Assembly: GCA_022710975.1 (NCBI GenBank)
Contig: JAKLGA010000001.1
Span: 372,001-436,000, forward strand
DNA: 64,000 nt
Source of the DNA: Myxococcota bacterium
GTDB lineage: Bacteria; Myxococcota; B64-G9
Direction of reading: 5' to 3'
The notes under the pieces were generated by a model that was not told the DNA's origin, ran no database searches, and saw only the letters and a program-made list of their open reading frames with translations. The position numbers and the translations under genes are program-made. This document shows, piece after piece, positions 28,369 to 35,893 of the stretch; the first letter of the stretch is position 1; the number at the start of each line of letters is the position of its first letter.

Positions 28369-29490
28369 CTATACCTTGCCGTCCAGGAAGCCCTCCAGGC
28401 CCGAGGGCCGGTGGGGGCCGAGGATCACGGTCTCGAGCGTGCTCACCCCCACCCGGTCACCGAAGCGCGCCCGGCAGATGGTGTGCACGTGGTTGTTCTC
28501 GAGCGCCTCGGGGTCCAGCCCCGCGACCTCGAAGCTCTCGCCGCCCAGCGCCTCCTCGCCCTTCCAGCGGGCGTGGCCCCACTCGGGGTGCTGGTAGCCG
28601 ATGCCCTTCATGTGGAAGCGGAAGAGCGGCTCGAGCTCGATCCGCTCCTGCTCGCCGCTCCGGTGGGTGAGCCGGAGCGTCGCGCCCTCGGGCCAGCGGG
28701 TGCCCTTGCGCATGCGCAGCTCGAGCTTGCCCGCGCCCAGCTCCTGCGCCCCGGGATCGTCGCCCTCGGGGATCTGTGCGGGCGTCCGGTGGAGCGGCAG
28801 CAGGGCGGCGCTGGCCTGCAGCGGCCAGCCCAGGCTGTCCTCGAAGGTGCCGAAGTGCACCCCCAGGTCGTCGAAGTGGTTCACGTTCCAGAACCAGGCC
28901 ACCCCGGGCAGCTCGGTCGCGGGCGCCCCGGGCTCGGGCTCACCCACCGGGCGGACCCCCCAGGAGCGGTCGCGCGCGCCGGGGAAGCGCTCGCGCCGGA
29001 GTGCGAGCTTGCGGCCGTGCACGCGCAGCTCGCCCTGCCAGGCGCCGAGCTGGGTGAAGCGGCAGGTCTCCAGCATCACCCGCCCGCCGGAGGTGAGCCG
29101 CGAGGGCGGCTCCTGGTAGGCCGAGGAGGCGGCCTGGAACACGAGCTCGCCCTCCAGGCCCGCGTCGTTCGGGGCCACGCGGATGGCGATGCGCCGCAGC
29201 GGCTCCTGCACCTCGAGCTGGAACGGCCCCACGCGCGTGTCGCGGCGCTCCTCGGGGGCACGGCGCGAGGCGTGCAGGCTGTGCTGGACCCCATCGAGGA
29301 GCACCGACAGGTGGGCGTCCATGACGCCCCGGTTGGGGTACAGGCCCAGGCCGGCGCCCACGTAGACGCCGGCCTCGGCGTCGAAGGCGTTGAACCAGTA
29401 GCGGTCGTAGAAGTTGCGCTCGCCACCGGCCGGCCGGGCCACGGGCGCGGGCGCCTGGTGCACGGGGAAGTCGTCGAAGCGGGTGATCAC
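28369..29490 (-). CDS. DUF7064/DUF7065-type protein
   Basis: 373 residues. The N-terminus (ITRFDDFPVHQ, then RNFYDRYWFNAFD, LGLYPNRGVMDAHLSVL, DGVQHSLHASRRAP) and the centre (RDRSWGVRPVGEP) match, from memory, a two-domain family annotated DUF7064/DUF7065 in actinobacteria and proteobacteria. The fold is probably a lipocalin-like beta-barrel pair (as in CrtC/AttH proteins that hydrate or bind hydrophobic compounds); that is inference. The ATG overlaps the stop of the upstream phosphotransferase gene (ATGA), so both are made together. Confidence 0.7.
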   Translation of the reverse strand: MITRFDDFPVHQAPAPVARPAGGERNFYDRYWFNAFDAEAGVYVGAGLGLYPNRGVMDAHLSVLLDGVQHSLHASRRAPEERRDTRVGPFQLEVQEPLRRIAIRVAPNDAGLEGELVFQAASSAYQEPPSRLTSGGRVMLETCRFTQLGAWQGELRVHGRKLALRRERFPGARDRSWGVRPVGEPEPGAPATELPGVAWFWNVNHFDDLGVHFGTFEDSLGWPLQASAALLPLHRTPAQIPEGDDPGAQELGAGKLELRMRKGTRWPEGATLRLTHRSGEQERIELEPLFRFHMKGIGYQHPEWGHARWKGEEALGGESFEVAGLDPEALENNHVHTICRARFGDRVGVSTLETVILGPHRPSGLEGFLDGKV

Positions 29491-31922
29491 GCAGCACCTC
29501 CGTGGTTCTGTGGGGAGTCGGGCGCCAGGCTCAGGCTGCCGCGATCCGCGTCGAGCACCACCCGATCGCCGGTGCGGAAGGTGCGGGTGGCGTGCCGCAG
29601 GCCGACCACGGCCGGCAGCCCGAACTCCCGGGCCACCACCGCGCCGTGGGACACGCTCGAGCCCACGTCGGTGGCCAGGCCGGCGATCACGGCGAAGTAC
29701 GGACTCCAGGCCACGTCGGTCACCGGGGCGATCAGGATCTCGCCGGGCCGCAGGCCGGCGGCTTCTTCCACGGTTCGCGCCACCCGGGCCGGGCCGGTCA
29801 CCACCCCGCGGCTGACGGGTTTCCCGCGCAGCTCACCCCCCCGGGGCGGATGCTCCTCGGGGCTGATGGGCTCGGGCGAGTGGGTGAACACGTCCGGCAG
29901 CTCCAGGCCCATCTGGTAGTCGAGGGCGCGCCTCCGGCCCTCGGCCCGGCCCGCCAGGGCGCGCTCGCCCGCGAGCAGCCGACCGAGCTCCGCGTGCGTC
30001 AGGAAGAAGACCAGATCCTCGTCGGGCAGCAGCCCCTCGGCGGCCAGGCGCGCCCCCAGGTGGCGGTAGGCGGCCTTGAAGCGGGCCACCACCTTGACCA
30101 GCAGCGACTTGGTGTGCTCCCGGCGGCGCACCGCGGACTGGGTCCAGCGCACCAGGGTGCGCAGCCAGCCCGCCAGGCGGGGCGCCGGGCGCCCGGTCGG
30201 CCGGCCGGCCGGGCGCGGCCCGGAGCGGCCGGACTGCAGCCGGGCGCGGCAGGAGCTCTGGATCGACTCCACCAGCGGCAAGGGATCCGCGGCCCACTCG
30301 GGCTGGCGCAGCTCCAGCTCCCGGATGGAGCGGTGCCCGTGCCGGGCCAGGTGGTCGGCGAAGCGCCTCCCGGCCTCGCCGGCCCCGGGGCCGCGCAGCC
30401 AGGCCAGGGCCGCGGCGGCGGGCAGCCCGGCCAGCTCGGCCAGCCCCCGGGGCGCCTGCTCGAGGGCGTCCACCACCCGCTCCACGCCGGCCAGGATGTC
30501 GGCGCTCTCCACGTCGTGCGCGCTGGCCTGGGCCAGCAGATCGGCCATGAGCGCCAGGGCCTCGTCCAGCGAGCGCCCGCCGCGCGCCAGCAGCTCGGGC
30601 AGGGCCGACTCCAGGGCGCCCGCCCCGGCCGAGGATCCCAGGTGGGCCTCGAAGGCCTCGAACAGGCAGGGCAGCGCGGCCCCGATGGCCGCGTGGGCCT
30701 CCTGGGCGCTCGCGGGCTGGGGGATGTCGAGCCCGGCCACGAGCCGCTCGAGCTCCCGGGCGAAACGCTCGCCCGAGGCCAGGTAGCGCGCGTAGCGCAG
30801 GCCGTTGCGCAGGCGGGTGAGCCTGGCGGCCGGTGGGCCCGGATCGAGGTCGGGCACGTGCCGGCCGGTGATGGCCAGGCCCAGGCGCTCGGCGCTGGCC
30901 CCGACCACCTGCGTGCCGATGCGGCCCATGGCGGTCAGGTTGAGGAACAGCCGGCCGTAGTACAGGCGCGACATGGTGAAGCGCTCGACCACGCTCGCGC
31001 GGGCGCCGGCCTCCACCTGCATGACCTGCAGCCCGCGGTCGTTGGCCCACCAGACCGTGGAGAAGGCCAGCGGGGTGATGGCCCCCGGCATGCACTCGCC
31101 GACGTTGCCGCTGGTGTAGTGATCGCCGGGCGCCTGCATGCAGTCGAGCTCGTTGGGATCGGCCGGCAACGCGGTGATGGGCCGGGCCTGCAGCCAGTAC
31201 AGCCGCCCGTCGCGGTCGAGGGCCCACTCGAGGTCCAGCGGCTGGCCGAGCGCGGCCTCGGCCGTCAGCGCGCCGGCCACCAGGGCGCGGAGCTGCTGCT
31301 CGTCGAGCAGCGGGCGCGCACCCTGCGCCTCGGCCCGCAGCAGCCGACCGTCGCGCCCGAGCCGGTAGCGATCCGGCTCCGCGTGGCCGCTGACGAGCTG
31401 CTCGCCCTGTCCCGCCACGGCGTCCACCAGCACGCAGTTGCGCCGGCCCGAGACCGGGTCCGCGGTGAACAGCACGCCCGCGGCCCGGCTGGCCACCATG
31501 CGCTGCACCACGACCGACATGCGGCGCTCCGCCCGCTCCGCGCGCCGCTCCCGGTAGGCCTCGGCCCGCCGGCTGTCCAAGGAGGCCAGGCAGTCCCGCA
31601 CCGCCTCCCTGAGCGCCGTGAAGCCCTGCACGTCCAGGATGGTCCGGTACTGCCCGGCGAAGGAGGCCTCGGCCGAGTCCTCGCCGAGCGCCGAGGAGCG
31701 CACCGCCACCGGACCGCCGCCCAGCCCCTCGAGGGCCTGCTCCAGGTCGTGGGGCAGCTCGGCCAGGCTGGCGCCCAGGATCACGAAGCCGGCCGGCACC
31801 GGCAGGCCCAGGCGCAGCAGGTGGGACAGCCCCTGGGCCTTGCCGCCCACGGGCAGGTCGTGGGCCTGCGCCAGCGGGATGCAGGCCGCCTTGCCGTTTC
31901 CGCCGATCCTCGCCGTGCTCAT
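29487..31922 (-). CDS. PEP-synthase/rifampin-phosphotransferase-like enzyme
   Basis: 811 residues. The N-terminal ATP-binding domain (pyruvate phosphate dikinase type) shows VGGKAQGLSHLLRLGLPVPAGF at its start (split here: VGGKAQGLSH, VPAGFVI), AVRSSALGEDSAEASFAGQ and VVVQRMV...GVLFTADP. A long middle domain of about 300 residues follows. The C-terminal swivelling domain carries the catalytic His in GSSVSHGAVVAREFGLPAVVG (written in part: SSVSHGAVVAREFG). Order and size are close to rifampin phosphotransferase (about 865 residues), which moves phosphate from ATP to a substrate hydroxyl. The substrate here is unknown; the coupled DUF7064/7065 gene suggests a hydrophobic molecule rather than an antibiotic. 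Confidence 0.78.
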   Translation of the reverse strand: MSTARIGGNGKAACIPLAQAHDLPVGGKAQGLSHLLRLGLPVPAGFVILGASLAELPHDLEQALEGLGGGPVAVRSSALGEDSAEASFAGQYRTILDVQGFTALREAVRDCLASLDSRRAEAYRERRAERAERRMSVVVQRMVASRAAGVLFTADPVSGRRNCVLVDAVAGQGEQLVSGHAEPDRYRLGRDGRLLRAEAQGARPLLDEQQLRALVAGALTAEAALGQPLDLEWALDRDGRLYWLQARPITALPADPNELDCMQAPGDHYTSGNVGECMPGAITPLAFSTVWWANDRGLQVMQVEAGARASVVERFTMSRLYYGRLFLNLTAMGRIGTQVVGASAERLGLAITGRHVPDLDPGPPAARLTRLRNGLRYARYLASGERFARELERLVAGLDIPQPASAQEAHAAIGAALPCLFEAFEAHLGSSAGAGALESALPELLARGGRSLDEALALMADLLAQASAHDVESADILAGVERVVDALEQAPRGLAELAGLPAAAALAWLRGPGAGEAGRRFADHLARHGHRSIRELELRQPEWAADPLPLVESIQSSCRARLQSGRSGPRPAGRPTGRPAPRLAGWLRTLVRWTQSAVRRREHTKSLLVKVVARFKAAYRHLGARLAAEGLLPDEDLVFFLTHAELGRLLAGERALAGRAEGRRRALDYQMGLELPDVFTHSPEPISPEEHPPRGGELRGKPVSRGVVTGPARVARTVEEAAGLRPGEILIAPVTDVAWSPYFAVIAGLATDVGSSVSHGAVVAREFGLPAVVGLRHATRTFRTGDRVVLDADRGSLSLAPDSPQNHGGAA

Positions 31923-32021: not shown

Positions 32022-32693
32022 TCAAGGAATCTGGGGCGGTGGACCTGGAGCCTTCAGCCTGGTGGCCAGGAAGTCCCGCAGTCGCTGGCGGGCTCCGGAA
32101 CCCTCCGCGACGAAGTGCCTGGCGTGGGCCACCCCGTCCTCTCCGGACAGCCCGTCCCAGGCCGCCTGGATCCCGCGCGGCAGGGTCAGCCCCGGGGCCA
32201 CCACCTCGGTGCGCTCGTCCACGCCGAGGAACTGGAGCCGGCCCTGGCGGGCCAGGTCCGCGATCCGCCTGGCCTCGGCCAGGCCCTCCTCGTAGCCCGC
32301 CAGACCGCCCAGGGAGATGCGCAGCCGTCCCTCCTGGATGGCGGTCTGGATGACCGGCGCGAACAGCACTTCGCCGTCGAGCGCGATGGCCAGCCTCTCC
32401 CGGAGGTGGGCGGCCGTGTAGGCCGCGAAGGCCCTGGCGCCGGCGGGGTCGAGCACCACGCTCACCTCGGGCTGGCCCATGGACGGGTCCACCACGGCGC
32501 GCGCCTCCGCGATGCGCAGGCCCGCCAGCTCCGGGGTCGGGACCACCAGGTAGGAGCGGTAGCGCTCGGGCTGTCCTCCCGAGCCGGGATCGCGGCCGAC
32601 CAGGAAGCGCGCGCCGGTCCCCTCCGGGCCGGCCAGGGCGGCCCGGCCGGGCAGGCCGCACAGCAGCGCCAGCATCAGGCAGCAGGTCCTCAT
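32022..32693 (-). CDS. Free-standing SecD P1-head-like periplasmic protein
   Basis: 223 residues with a signal peptide (cleaved near RAALA-GP). Residues about 60-145 (VVLDPAGARAFAAYTAAHL, then RLAIALDGEVLFAPVIQTAI and GRLRISLGG) match the SecD P1 head, the periplasmic domain that helps pull exported proteins during Sec transport. SecD normally carries six membrane helices; none are present here, so this is a soluble or loosely attached copy of the head alone. It starts four bases after the stop of the GH31 lipoprotein gene and is probably its operon partner. Function unknown; a chaperone for exported proteins is conjecture. Confidence 0.68.
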   Translation of the reverse strand: MRTCCLMLALLCGLPGRAALAGPEGTGARFLVGRDPGSGGQPERYRSYLVVPTPELAGLRIAEARAVVDPSMGQPEVSVVLDPAGARAFAAYTAAHLRERLAIALDGEVLFAPVIQTAIQEGRLRISLGGLAGYEEGLAEARRIADLARQGRLQFLGVDERTEVVAPGLTLPRGIQAAWDGLSGEDGVAHARHFVAEGSGARQRLRDFLATRLKAPGPPPQIP

Positions 32694-32697
32694 GCGT

Positions 32698-35154
32698 TCA
32701 CTCGCCTCTCAGCACGATCTTCAGCCGCCGCGCCGCGCTCCCCCCGGTGACCGTGAGCTGGCCCTGGCCGTCGAGCTCGAGCGTGCCCTGGCCGGTCAAC
32801 TCCACGCTGCCGTCGGCGGCGATGGACACCGCCTGGCCGTTCCAGCGGGCCTCGGTCAGGGGGGGCTCGGCGCCGCCCGGGCTCCAGGCGTAGCTGAGCC
32901 CGGACTCCTCGGTGAGCGCGCCCTGCGCTGCGCTGGCCTGGCCGGGCCACAGCCACAGCTCGCGGTCGTCGCCGATGTCCAGGTGGGTCACCACACCCGC
33001 TCCGACGGCGCCCGGCACCAGGCTGTTCACCTGCCCGGGCAGGAGCACGAGCAGGGCGCCCGCCGGCACGAACACCGGGATCTCCTCGAGCGGGGCCGCG
33101 ACCTCGAGCTCGCCGCCCTGCAGGCCGGGCCCGCCCAGCAGCGGGAAGTAGGTGCCCGCGGGCAGGCTCACCCGCCGGGTGCGCGCCTGATCCACGACGA
33201 CCGGCGCCACGTACAGCCGATCCCCCAGCAGGTACTGGTCGGTCGCCGACCAGCCCGGCTCGAAGTCCGGGTGATGGAGCGCGAGCGGGCGCATGAGCGG
33301 CAGGCCCGTGGCGGCCGCCTCCACGGCCAGCGCGCGCAGGTAGGGGTAGAGCCGGAGGTGCAGGCTGGCCCAGCGCCTGAGGTGCGCGATCGACTCCGCG
33401 TCGCTCTCCCAGCTCCAGTTGGCGAAGGCCATGCGCCCGTGGTGGGTGCGCATGACCGGCGTGAGCGCGCCCAGGGTCACCCAGCGGAACCACAGCTCCC
33501 GGGTGGTCGGCGGGGCGATGTTGCCGGTGTAGCCGCCGATGTCGTGGGCGAAGTAGGGGAAGCCGCTGAGCCCCAGGTTCAGGCCCATGGGGATCACCGA
33601 GGGCAGCCCGTCGCCCTGCGAGAAGTCGGTGAGCTGGTCGCCGGCCCAGAGCACCGACACCAGCGGCTGGGAGCCGAGGTAGGCCGAGCGCACGAAGAAC
33701 AGCCGCTCGATGCCGTCCTCGGCGCGCAGCTCGTCCAGCAGCTCCTTGTTCAGCCGCTGGTAGGCGACCGGGTACAGGTTGTGGGCAAGCGCCGCGTCCT
33801 CGCCCGAGGCGAGCACTGCGTCGGGCGGCAGCCACTCGGCGAAGTCGGCCATGTACCCGTCCGCACCGAGCGCGAGCCCGTCGCGGTGCTTCTGCTTGGT
33901 CCAGGCCACGGCCGCGGGGCTCGAGAGGTCCACCAGGCTGGTCGGGGTGAACTTGCCGCTGGTGAACAGGTAGGGCGCGCCGGCCGCGTCCCGGATGGTG
34001 TGGTCGAGGGACACGGCCTCGGCGTAGGTGCCCACCTCCGAGTCCAGGAAGGTGTTGTAGTAGGTCAGGAACTTGAAGCCCTGCGCGTGCAGGTCGGCGG
34101 CCAGCGCCTCGAAGTCCGGGTACAGCGCCCGGTCCACCTCCCAGTCCTCGTCGAGCGTGTAGGCGTCGCCCGAGCGTGTGCCGCCGCGCCAGTCCTCGGT
34201 CCAGATCGCGGAGCAGGGCACGCCCTCGCTGCGGAGCCTGGCCGCCACGCGGCGCACGTTCTCCGAGCCGAACAGGGCGTCCAGCCACGGGGCGAAGGCG
34301 AAGGCCGGCGGCAGCTCGGGCCGGCCGAGCCGGGCGGTGAGCCGCGCGAGCGCGCCGGGCAGATCGGGGCCGTCGAACAGGTGCAGGCGAATCGTCCCCT
34401 CCCAGGCCTCGACGCGCACCTCGTCCCCGGCCTCGGAGGCCACGTGGAAGATCGAGCGGGCCGGGGTGTCGAGCAGCGCGGCGTAGCCGCGGCTGGACAG
34501 GCACAGCGGCATGGGCGAGTGGGTGGTGTGCCGCCGGCCGGTCAGGAACCAGGCCACGGGGTCGTAGTCGTCGGTCGGGTTCTTGCCGATGCCGTCCTCC
34601 TCGACCCACAGGGGCAGGCGCTGGCCGCGGTGGTCCACGTCGAAGCTCATGCCGCCGAAGCCCAGGAAGTGCTCACCCGCCTCCGCGCGGAACCCGAGGC
34701 TGGCCCGGTTGTGGTTGGGGTTCGCGGCCGTGAGCGTGAGCAGCAGCTCCCCCTCGGCCACCCGCTCGACGGAGCCCTCGGCCAGCGCGCCGGCCGGGCC
34801 GTGGAGGGAGAAACGGATCACCTCGCCGTCCTGGCCGTGCAACGCGAGCCGGGTCGCCCCGCTCCACGCGCGGCCGTCCTCGCTGATGCGGAAGGAGCCG
34901 AAGCTGTGCTCGAAGGTGGCGGTGGCCGCGCGGAAGGCGGCCAGCACGCGGGGCGCCTCGGCGGCCCCCGCCTCGCCCGCCGCGGGCAGGGCGTCCAGCA
35001 GCACCCGCCCGTCGGAGGCCAGGATCTGCAGGCCGGCCGGGTCCTCGGTGAGGATCACCTCGAACCCGTCGAGCGCGTACCGCCCGTCGTCGCCCGCCCC
35101 GCACCCGGCGGTGCAGGCGAGCAGGACAGCCTGGAACACGAGCCGAACGCGCAT
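32698..35154 (-). CDS. GH31 glycoside hydrolase lipoprotein, sulfoquinovosidase-like
   Basis: 818 residues from the ATG at 35154 (GGAGG upstream), with lipobox TAGC near residue 18, so it is a lipoprotein. The GH31 barrel has the nucleophile in DGYMADFAEW (Asp437) and the acid/base in WAGDQLTDFS (Asp506), followed by DGLPSVIP, DIGGYTGN and MRTHHGR. The AGDQ and YMADF forms are those of sulfoquinovosidases (YihQ) rather than the usual GDN of alpha-glucosidases. Alpha-glycoside cleavage is likely; sulfoquinovose specificity is only suggested. The only close neighbour is the SecD-head gene; no sulfoquinovose catabolism genes are nearby. Confidence 0.85.
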   Translation of the reverse strand: MRVRLVFQAVLLACTAGCGAGDDGRYALDGFEVILTEDPAGLQILASDGRVLLDALPAAGEAGAAEAPRVLAAFRAATATFEHSFGSFRISEDGRAWSGATRLALHGQDGEVIRFSLHGPAGALAEGSVERVAEGELLLTLTAANPNHNRASLGFRAEAGEHFLGFGGMSFDVDHRGQRLPLWVEEDGIGKNPTDDYDPVAWFLTGRRHTTHSPMPLCLSSRGYAALLDTPARSIFHVASEAGDEVRVEAWEGTIRLHLFDGPDLPGALARLTARLGRPELPPAFAFAPWLDALFGSENVRRVAARLRSEGVPCSAIWTEDWRGGTRSGDAYTLDEDWEVDRALYPDFEALAADLHAQGFKFLTYYNTFLDSEVGTYAEAVSLDHTIRDAAGAPYLFTSGKFTPTSLVDLSSPAAVAWTKQKHRDGLALGADGYMADFAEWLPPDAVLASGEDAALAHNLYPVAYQRLNKELLDELRAEDGIERLFFVRSAYLGSQPLVSVLWAGDQLTDFSQGDGLPSVIPMGLNLGLSGFPYFAHDIGGYTGNIAPPTTRELWFRWVTLGALTPVMRTHHGRMAFANWSWESDAESIAHLRRWASLHLRLYPYLRALAVEAAATGLPLMRPLALHHPDFEPGWSATDQYLLGDRLYVAPVVVDQARTRRVSLPAGTYFPLLGGPGLQGGELEVAAPLEEIPVFVPAGALLVLLPGQVNSLVPGAVGAGVVTHLDIGDDRELWLWPGQASAAQGALTEESGLSYAWSPGGAEPPLTEARWNGQAVSIAADGSVELTGQGTLELDGQGQLTVTGGSAARRLKIVLRGE

Positions 35155-35182: not shown

Positions 35183-35893
35183 CTAGTTGTTCTCACAGTA
35201 AGTGTAGTACCGGGGCGATACCTGTACGGTCACCTCCCGACGGTTTCCATTCGCGTCGAGAAACACCACATCGAAGGCAAGCCTGAAAGGGTCCTCGGAG
35301 AGTACGGTGGCGGATCCCGAGACGGAGACCGACTGGTAGTCGGGAAAACCCCAGCCGGATTCGTCCCAGCTCGCGTAGATCGCCGGAGGTTCGGCTGGTG
35401 GCATGCCCACGTTCTGCCAGATGTGGTGCTGAACTGGATAGCTCTCTCCTCGTCTTTTCGGGCCCGCGATGTACTGGTACATCGTCACATGGGCGCAGTA
35501 CTTGGCCAGGGAACCAGGCTCACAGTAGGGCGGCAAGATGCCGAAGCCGATGACCACCCAGCACACACCTGTGTTGCTTCCCGGCGAGTTCACCATCGCG
35601 AGCTGACAGGTCCAGTCATCTGCCCCCTCGCCTGCGACGAATCCCATATACTCTTCTCTGTGCGGCTGCTCGGGGTAGAGGCTCTGGCCCGAGATCTTGA
35701 AATCGGAACGATCCCAGTACACGCGGCCCTCCTCCCAGGTCGGGCAATCATCACAGCCCGCCGCGAGGACGCACTGGCAGAGGACCCCGACCAGCGGCAA
35801 ACCCAGCTTCCCCCACTTCCAGGTGCCACCCGATTTCAGCGCGGACTTCGCCGCTTGATGCCGCCGTCTCCAGTGCTCGCAACTCGCCGCCAT
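35183..35893 (-). CDS. Hypothetical lipoprotein in a lower-GC patch
   Basis: 236 residues, not recognised. The long N-terminal region (MAASCEHWRRRHQAAK, then LGLPLVGVLCQCVLAAGC) ends in a lipobox AAGC. The body has six more Cys and Trp/Tyr-rich stretches (RVYWDRSDFKISG, HIWQNVGMPP, VQVSPRYYTYC). A row of the sequence around 35221-35280 is about 57% G+C against roughly 70% for most of the window, so the gene may have arrived by transfer. It ends 28 bases before the GH31 start, and a wrecked transposase lies just upstream of it. Confidence 0.55.
   Translation of the reverse strand: MAASCEHWRRRHQAAKSALKSGGTWKWGKLGLPLVGVLCQCVLAAGCDDCPTWEEGRVYWDRSDFKISGQSLYPEQPHREEYMGFVAGEGADDWTCQLAMVNSPGSNTGVCWVVIGFGILPPYCEPGSLAKYCAHVTMYQYIAGPKRRGESYPVQHHIWQNVGMPPAEPPAIYASWDESGWGFPDYQSVSVSGSATVLSEDPFRLAFDVVFLDANGNRREVTVQVSPRYYTYCENN

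Follow-up and report, generated by a model that had tools for sequence, protein, structure and literature searches.

Why should the head of the SecD P1 domain, a part of a membrane motor, occur in a bacterium as a separate protein with an export-like start, and why should its gene follow that of a glycosidase? Both questions are raised by a 64,000-nucleotide stretch of contig JAKLGA010000001.1 from a Myxococcota bacterium (here called the window). The answer developed below is that the protein probably belongs to a small group of P1 derivatives in which head and base have exchanged places, and that its neighbor does not account for it.

A SecD P1 head without a membrane part

The two genes lie on the minus strand. 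The GH31 gene comes first (32698..35154; 818 residues with a lipobox-like N terminus, assigned by its family match and by alignment to YihQ), and four bases separate its stop from the start of the gene for the SecD-P1-derived protein (P0001; 32022..32693; 223 residues, an open frame with a PF22599 match). A preliminary description of the locus had placed a SecD P1 head directly behind a lipoprotein glycosidase, and the searches bear out both the arrangement and the head. PF22599 (SecDF_P1_head) matches residues 45-151 (32241..32561, minus strand) with 68.2 bits against a cut-off of 27, and the closest solved structure by sequence is the Thermus SecDF P1 crystal structure 3aqo (E 3.2e-12). In an AlphaFold model the head is confident, with block means of pLDDT of 80-96 over residues 31-160, and the top Foldseek match of this model is 3aqo_A (E 4.2e-7). 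The tail is modeled with low confidence (block means of 36-52 from residue 161 on), and pLDDT is below 50 at residues 1-18. A signal-peptide-like segment, recognized by eye, occupies residues 1-21 (MRTCCLMLALLCGLPGRAALA; 32631..32693, minus strand). The core head motif (ERLAIALDGEV..APVIQ) is retained, and GC at third codon positions is 0.93.

As the preliminary description had also claimed, no membrane helix follows the head. The SecD translocase features that were looked for, the SecD_SecF_C Pfam domain and the GG motif, gave no Pfam match in the 223-residue protein and are present in the SecD of the same genome; TIGR01129 reaches 64.7 bits, below its cut-off of 244.4. A plasmid search with P0001 found no match, PADLOC returned nothing for three window proteins (a 236-residue ORF among them), and the whole window contains no Rfam match at the gathering threshold.

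Is a complete SecD encoded elsewhere in this genome (7.1 Mb, completeness given as 98.63)? PF22599 matches at two places, the window gene and a 729-residue frame on another contig, and the latter is a complete SecD that carries PF21760, PF22599, PF02355 and PF07549. SecD-TM1 (PF13721) has no match in this genome, and among 14 control genomes E. coli alone has one. A third, more diverged P1 protein (G000:C11:152023-152910; L214:1486-2436) was found only with another profile; it has a lipobox-like start and is encoded directly behind tyrS. Named relatives from the same family have been deposited as Deltaproteobacteria or Myxococcales MAGs.

Permuted relatives and the tail of the window protein

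In SecD proteins of this family, the chain runs from helix 1 through the base of P1, an extended linker in which Ala, Pro, Lys or Glu abound, and the head, to as many as five hydrophobic helices. This linker is Ala/Pro- or Ala/Lys-rich in L036, L044 and L128-L133, and by eye about 200 residues long in genome G007. Two related proteins follow another order: L134 (= L035; JAFGRB010000268.1, G007), with 385 residues, and L135 (= L037; JAFDKH010000262.1, G005:C279), with 451 residues, each consist of a signal-like start, the head and then the base, without C-terminal helices. Both open exactly at the linker that joins base and head in SecD.

Considering that a plain multiple alignment cannot show a permutation, and puts the base pieces partly on the head, separate profiles were used. 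A profile of the region before the head, built from nine SecD proteins of the family, matches after the head in both proteins, with 109.9 bits on L134 and 75.3 bits on L135. PF21760, the N-terminal part of P1, is likewise found behind the head (63-173) of L135, at residues 289-345 (E 0.004), where its 17 bits remain below the cut-off of 27. A P1 lipoprotein profile with no permutants in it also reads L135 head-first and SecD base-first. On this sequence evidence, L134 and L135 are circularly permuted P1 domains without membrane helices.

AlphaFold models of L135, computed from an alignment of 17 rows that are mostly fragments cut to head or base, reached a pLDDT of 87.8 and a pTM of 0.77 in the best of five, and pLDDT values of 75.9-81.1 in the other four. 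In this model strands 176-184 and 187-194 are consecutive, about where the last head-side strand runs into the first base strand. Foldseek and VIA-align, which keep chain order, recovered the head alone when the model was compared with SecDF (Z 11.8 to 5yhf), so the base of the permutants is supported by sequence and not by fold comparison. The permutation itself is a hint that neither head nor base needs the membrane part in order to fold.

Does the window protein belong with these permutants? Behind its head, and overlapping the head's end, lies a segment that matches a part of the P1 base found ahead of the head in SecD (residues 146-210; 32064..32258, minus strand; LEF..D-LPxGI-..VA-..RLxDF). 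A base profile made from SecD only gives 9.2 bits on the whole window protein (residues 147-210) and 8.5 bits on the tail alone; the best of 2000 shuffles scored 4.0 and the best of 5000 others 5.0. The same profile was run against 1392 segments of 71 residues, cut from the ORFs of the window, including spurious ones, and from genes in the neighborhood of other P1 genes. Five segments beat the window tail, all of them derived from other P1 proteins; the highest score of an unrelated segment was 7.4 bits. With the two permutants in the profile, the window protein scores 16.6 bits (residues 146-210), a rise that comes from adding two presumed kin, and the tail alone 12.6 bits, with 3.9 bits for the best of 5000 shuffles and 7.3 for the best unrelated segment. 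The preliminary description was correct that a SecD head is present, but the protein is not a head alone: its tail resembles part of the P1 base, placed in permuted order.

The head points in the same direction. A tree built from 54 heads pairs the window head with the head of L134 (G007_C404) as sisters, at 97/90 there and at 95/86 in a second tree without eight long rows; the window row is itself a long branch (2.14), so its position is less sure. Both trees omit G071_C118 and G004_C513, which are short and partial; the second also omits the long-branch rows G132_C73, G140_C311, G182_C767, G102_C442, G183_C254, G004_C534, G134_C92 and G008_C36, and keeps the window row and SecD_G102 though both were flagged as long branches. 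A clade of all three permuted heads is absent from the free tree, in which the third permutant groups apart, and is not rejected (p-AU 0.18).

Since its tail matches the base and its head is sister to that of L134, the window protein is quite probably a truncated permutant of SecD P1. It resembles SecD and SecDF P1 (PF22599, PF21760; Thermus 3aqo, 3aqp) in head fold and core sequence, and differs in having no helices after the head, in the absence of most of the base, and in the position of the remaining base segment behind the head. With L134 and L135 it shares the signal-like start and the order of head and base; these proteins, however, are longer, keep part or most of the base, and have other neighbors. 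Part of the base is gone in L134 and most of it in the window protein, which suggests stepwise shortening.

How might such a protein have arisen? A copy of SecD would have lost its membrane helices, and the two ends of P1 that enter the membrane would have become joined. With new ends created in the linker that connects base and head, the head would have come to follow the signal peptide and the base to stand last. This head-then-base form may survive as L135 and, in a version that lacks some of the base, as L134; deletion of most of the base in the window lineage would then have left the head and one base segment. We infer both the export of the window protein and the order of these steps.

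The main rival explanation is that the protein is a relic, a decaying SecD-P1 paralogue that has no function and is open by chance. Decay would be in keeping with the long branch, with a base of which, compared with the permutants, little is left, and with the different gene context of every permutant. It would also suit the finding that the genomes searched contain no close orthologue; a scan of the genome contigs with P0001 alone revealed no relative. On the other hand, the frame is intact, its start is signal-like and its third-position GC bias is strong, while the core head motif is kept and the head is modeled with high confidence. A functionless relic seems to us unlikely, and we continue with the reading of the protein as a shortened permutant.

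P1 domains outside SecD

How unusual is a P1 domain outside SecD? Among 195 genomes of the phylum, PF22599 matches in 185, with two or more matches in 25; the profile missed G000:C11 and G006:C26, so these counts are lower bounds. The 25 multi-match genomes contain 55 places, of which 25, one per genome, were taken for SecD (frames of 582-993 residues, one cut by a contig end, with helices checked in 8 of the 25 and the rest called by frame length). The other 30, every one of which was inspected, comprise the window gene, the two permutants, G102:C442, in which helices precede P1, and 26 more; of these 26, two are short and partial (G071:C118 and G004:C513) and one is cut by the end of its contig (G062:C79). 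Most of the remaining P1 proteins have about 260-345 residues and a head that falls within the C-terminal half, with no helix set behind it and a lipobox-like start as judged by eye; in at least two (G064:C198 and G132:C73) an N-terminal helix takes the place of this start. The protein with helices before P1 (L080:3281-4972) has 564 residues and several hydrophobic stretches ahead of the domain, and its membrane part is without a Pfam match. Free-standing P1 proteins are not peculiar to this genome, as the permutants and the lipoproteins of other genomes show.

One orthologous set of P1 lipoproteins has a fixed position. Of 9 genomes of the family, 7, including the window's own (G000:C11), have its gene immediately after tyrS or, in G006 and G007, separated from it by one gene; tyrS was identified by PF00579 in 3 of the 7 and by eye in the others. 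Like the window protein, these lipoproteins have an export-like start and no C-terminal helices; unlike it, they have the canonical base-then-head order, a conserved context and a lipobox-like start. In several family genomes the lipoprotein gene faces a gene that by eye is transketolase-like. G006 has a scramblase-like gene (PF03803) between tyrS and the lipoprotein gene, and a small gene whose start looks similar by eye occupies the same spot in G007 (the two loci are L213:2418-3059 and L038:5784-6380).

Among the best 80 of 253 named relatives, 76 have three or more hydrophobic helices behind the head, as in SecD. The remaining four are the two permutants, a protein cut by a contig end, and a fusion to SecY. 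The fusion protein (L201:3192-5309; JAAFHV010000001.1, a Myxococcales MAG) has 706 residues and combines a SecY domain (PF00344, E 3.4e-19) and a P1 head (E 1.7e-16); its genome (G195) also encodes an ordinary SecY. The fusion could be a translocon paralogue with a substrate-gripping domain of its own. A search with the SecY-P1 fusion at E 1e-25, run without a positive control, found nothing in the 195 phylum genomes, a set that perhaps excludes the fusion-bearing genome.

Some database entries carry the name of the P1 head domain. The literature titles and abstract openings searched, in a collection that covers few subscription journals, describe no P1 protein that is free-standing, permuted or fused to SecY. 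In the intact motor, pulling and holding by SecD are hard to separate, and the soluble permuted P1 proteins, together with the tyrS-linked lipoproteins of the 7 genomes, are natural tests of P1 acting alone. One could imagine that these bacteria have made of SecD P1 a set of components separate from the motor, namely lipoproteins with a conserved gene position, secreted permutants (one trimmed almost to the head) and a SecY fusion, which together would form an unpowered layer for polypeptide handling outside the inner membrane; we offer this as a speculation that is more doubtful than not.

Function and the glycosidase neighbor

What could a soluble P1 head do? In SecD, the substrate-binding pocket lies in the head, which has been proposed to move as cations flow (PMC7793623, PMC11470409). 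The window protein has no proton-driven membrane part and so cannot pull substrates. A soluble head can keep the pocket and not the motor, and for this reason passive chain binding is judged the likeliest function. Binding would use the same pocket as in SecD, and this functional assignment, made by analogy, is a tentative one to which we would give somewhat less than an even chance. Taken as a whole, the reading toward which we lean is that of a secreted, shortened, circularly permuted SecD P1 derivative, most plausibly a passive periplasmic binder of unfolded or emerging chains.

Perhaps the soluble head instead acts on the Sec system itself, as a regulator or decoy; in competition with SecD, it would bind PpiD-like chaperones or emerging chains. 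The P1 head of E. coli SecD contacts the chaperone PpiD and is described as a substrate-binding site (PMC7793623), and a P1 domain also occurs fused to a SecY paralogue. Considering that the window holds no sequence sign of Sec contact, and that no Sec gene was recognized among the tested neighbors of the three permuted proteins, we find such a role improbable.

The neighbors of the other permutants are of a different kind. The gene for L134 lies directly behind genes for a PAS histidine kinase and a sigma-54 response regulator, all on one strand (L035:1527-6057), and that for L135 precedes a gene for a 212-residue exported-looking protein. These contexts bear on a further explanation, in which the P1 head would be a dedicated partner of the GH31 lipoprotein and would aid its folding, its crossing of the periplasm or its substrate binding, as the four-base spacing on one strand, GH31 first, might suggest. 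The preliminary description had said that a pair without conservation would refute its reading, and the pair is not conserved: orthologues of the GH31 protein with 62-64% identity occur in G007 and G008 without the head gene, the PF22599 matches of both genomes being on contigs other than that of GH31 and the ORFs that flank their GH31 genes being different. In 11 further genomes with GH31 relatives of 39-46% identity, there is at most one PF22599 match each. The orthologues of G007 and G008 rule out a conserved GH31-head gene pair, and, with the permutants in other contexts, it follows that the GH31 neighbor does not explain the head. A dedicated partnership is thus very improbable, and the placement of the head gene after GH31 seems specific to this lineage rather than a sign of an obligate partnership.

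The GH31 protein itself starts with MRVRLVFQAVLLACTAGC, in which TAGC is lipobox-like and Cys18 is invariant in three aligned orthologues. Its nearest solved structure is YihQ (5aed, E 1.2e-94), whose catalytic D405 and D472 align with D437 and D506, so that both the family match and the catalytic Asp pair are present. From the family, the substrate is likely an alpha-glycoside. The preliminary description had gone further and spoken of sulfoquinovosidase-like motifs. The motifs that it named are those that surround the catalytic Asp residues. We take Q262, Q288, R301, W304 and Y508 to be the sulfoquinovose-binding set of YihQ, which was reportedly given by Abayakoon in 2018. In the GH31 protein the first four are replaced by L294, E320, T333 and E336, the two Glu residues being invariant in three orthologues, and only Y508 is kept, as Y542. 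With four of the five residues replaced, sulfoquinovosidase specificity is unsupported. The NCBIfam model NF007746 (alpha-glucosidase, presumably the old name of YihQ) scores 437.7 on this protein, below its cut-off of 553. The residue set finds no confirmation in the accessible parts of PMC9061262, PMC11968277 and PMC9594981, and does not occur in PMC13219744.

Other genes on the minus strand surround the pair. Upstream of GH31, the 236-residue ORF (35183-35893) has no Pfam match at E up to 1, no PADLOC match, and in NCBIfam a single match, at chance level. On the other side, 29487-31922 encodes a protein with PEP-synthase-like ATP-binding and PEP-utilising mobile domains, which resembles the models of PEP synthase, RedH and rifamycin phosphotransferase at scores far below their cut-offs. 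The gene at 28369-29490 encodes a protein of the Rv3169 family, with 353 bits against a cut-off of 150.
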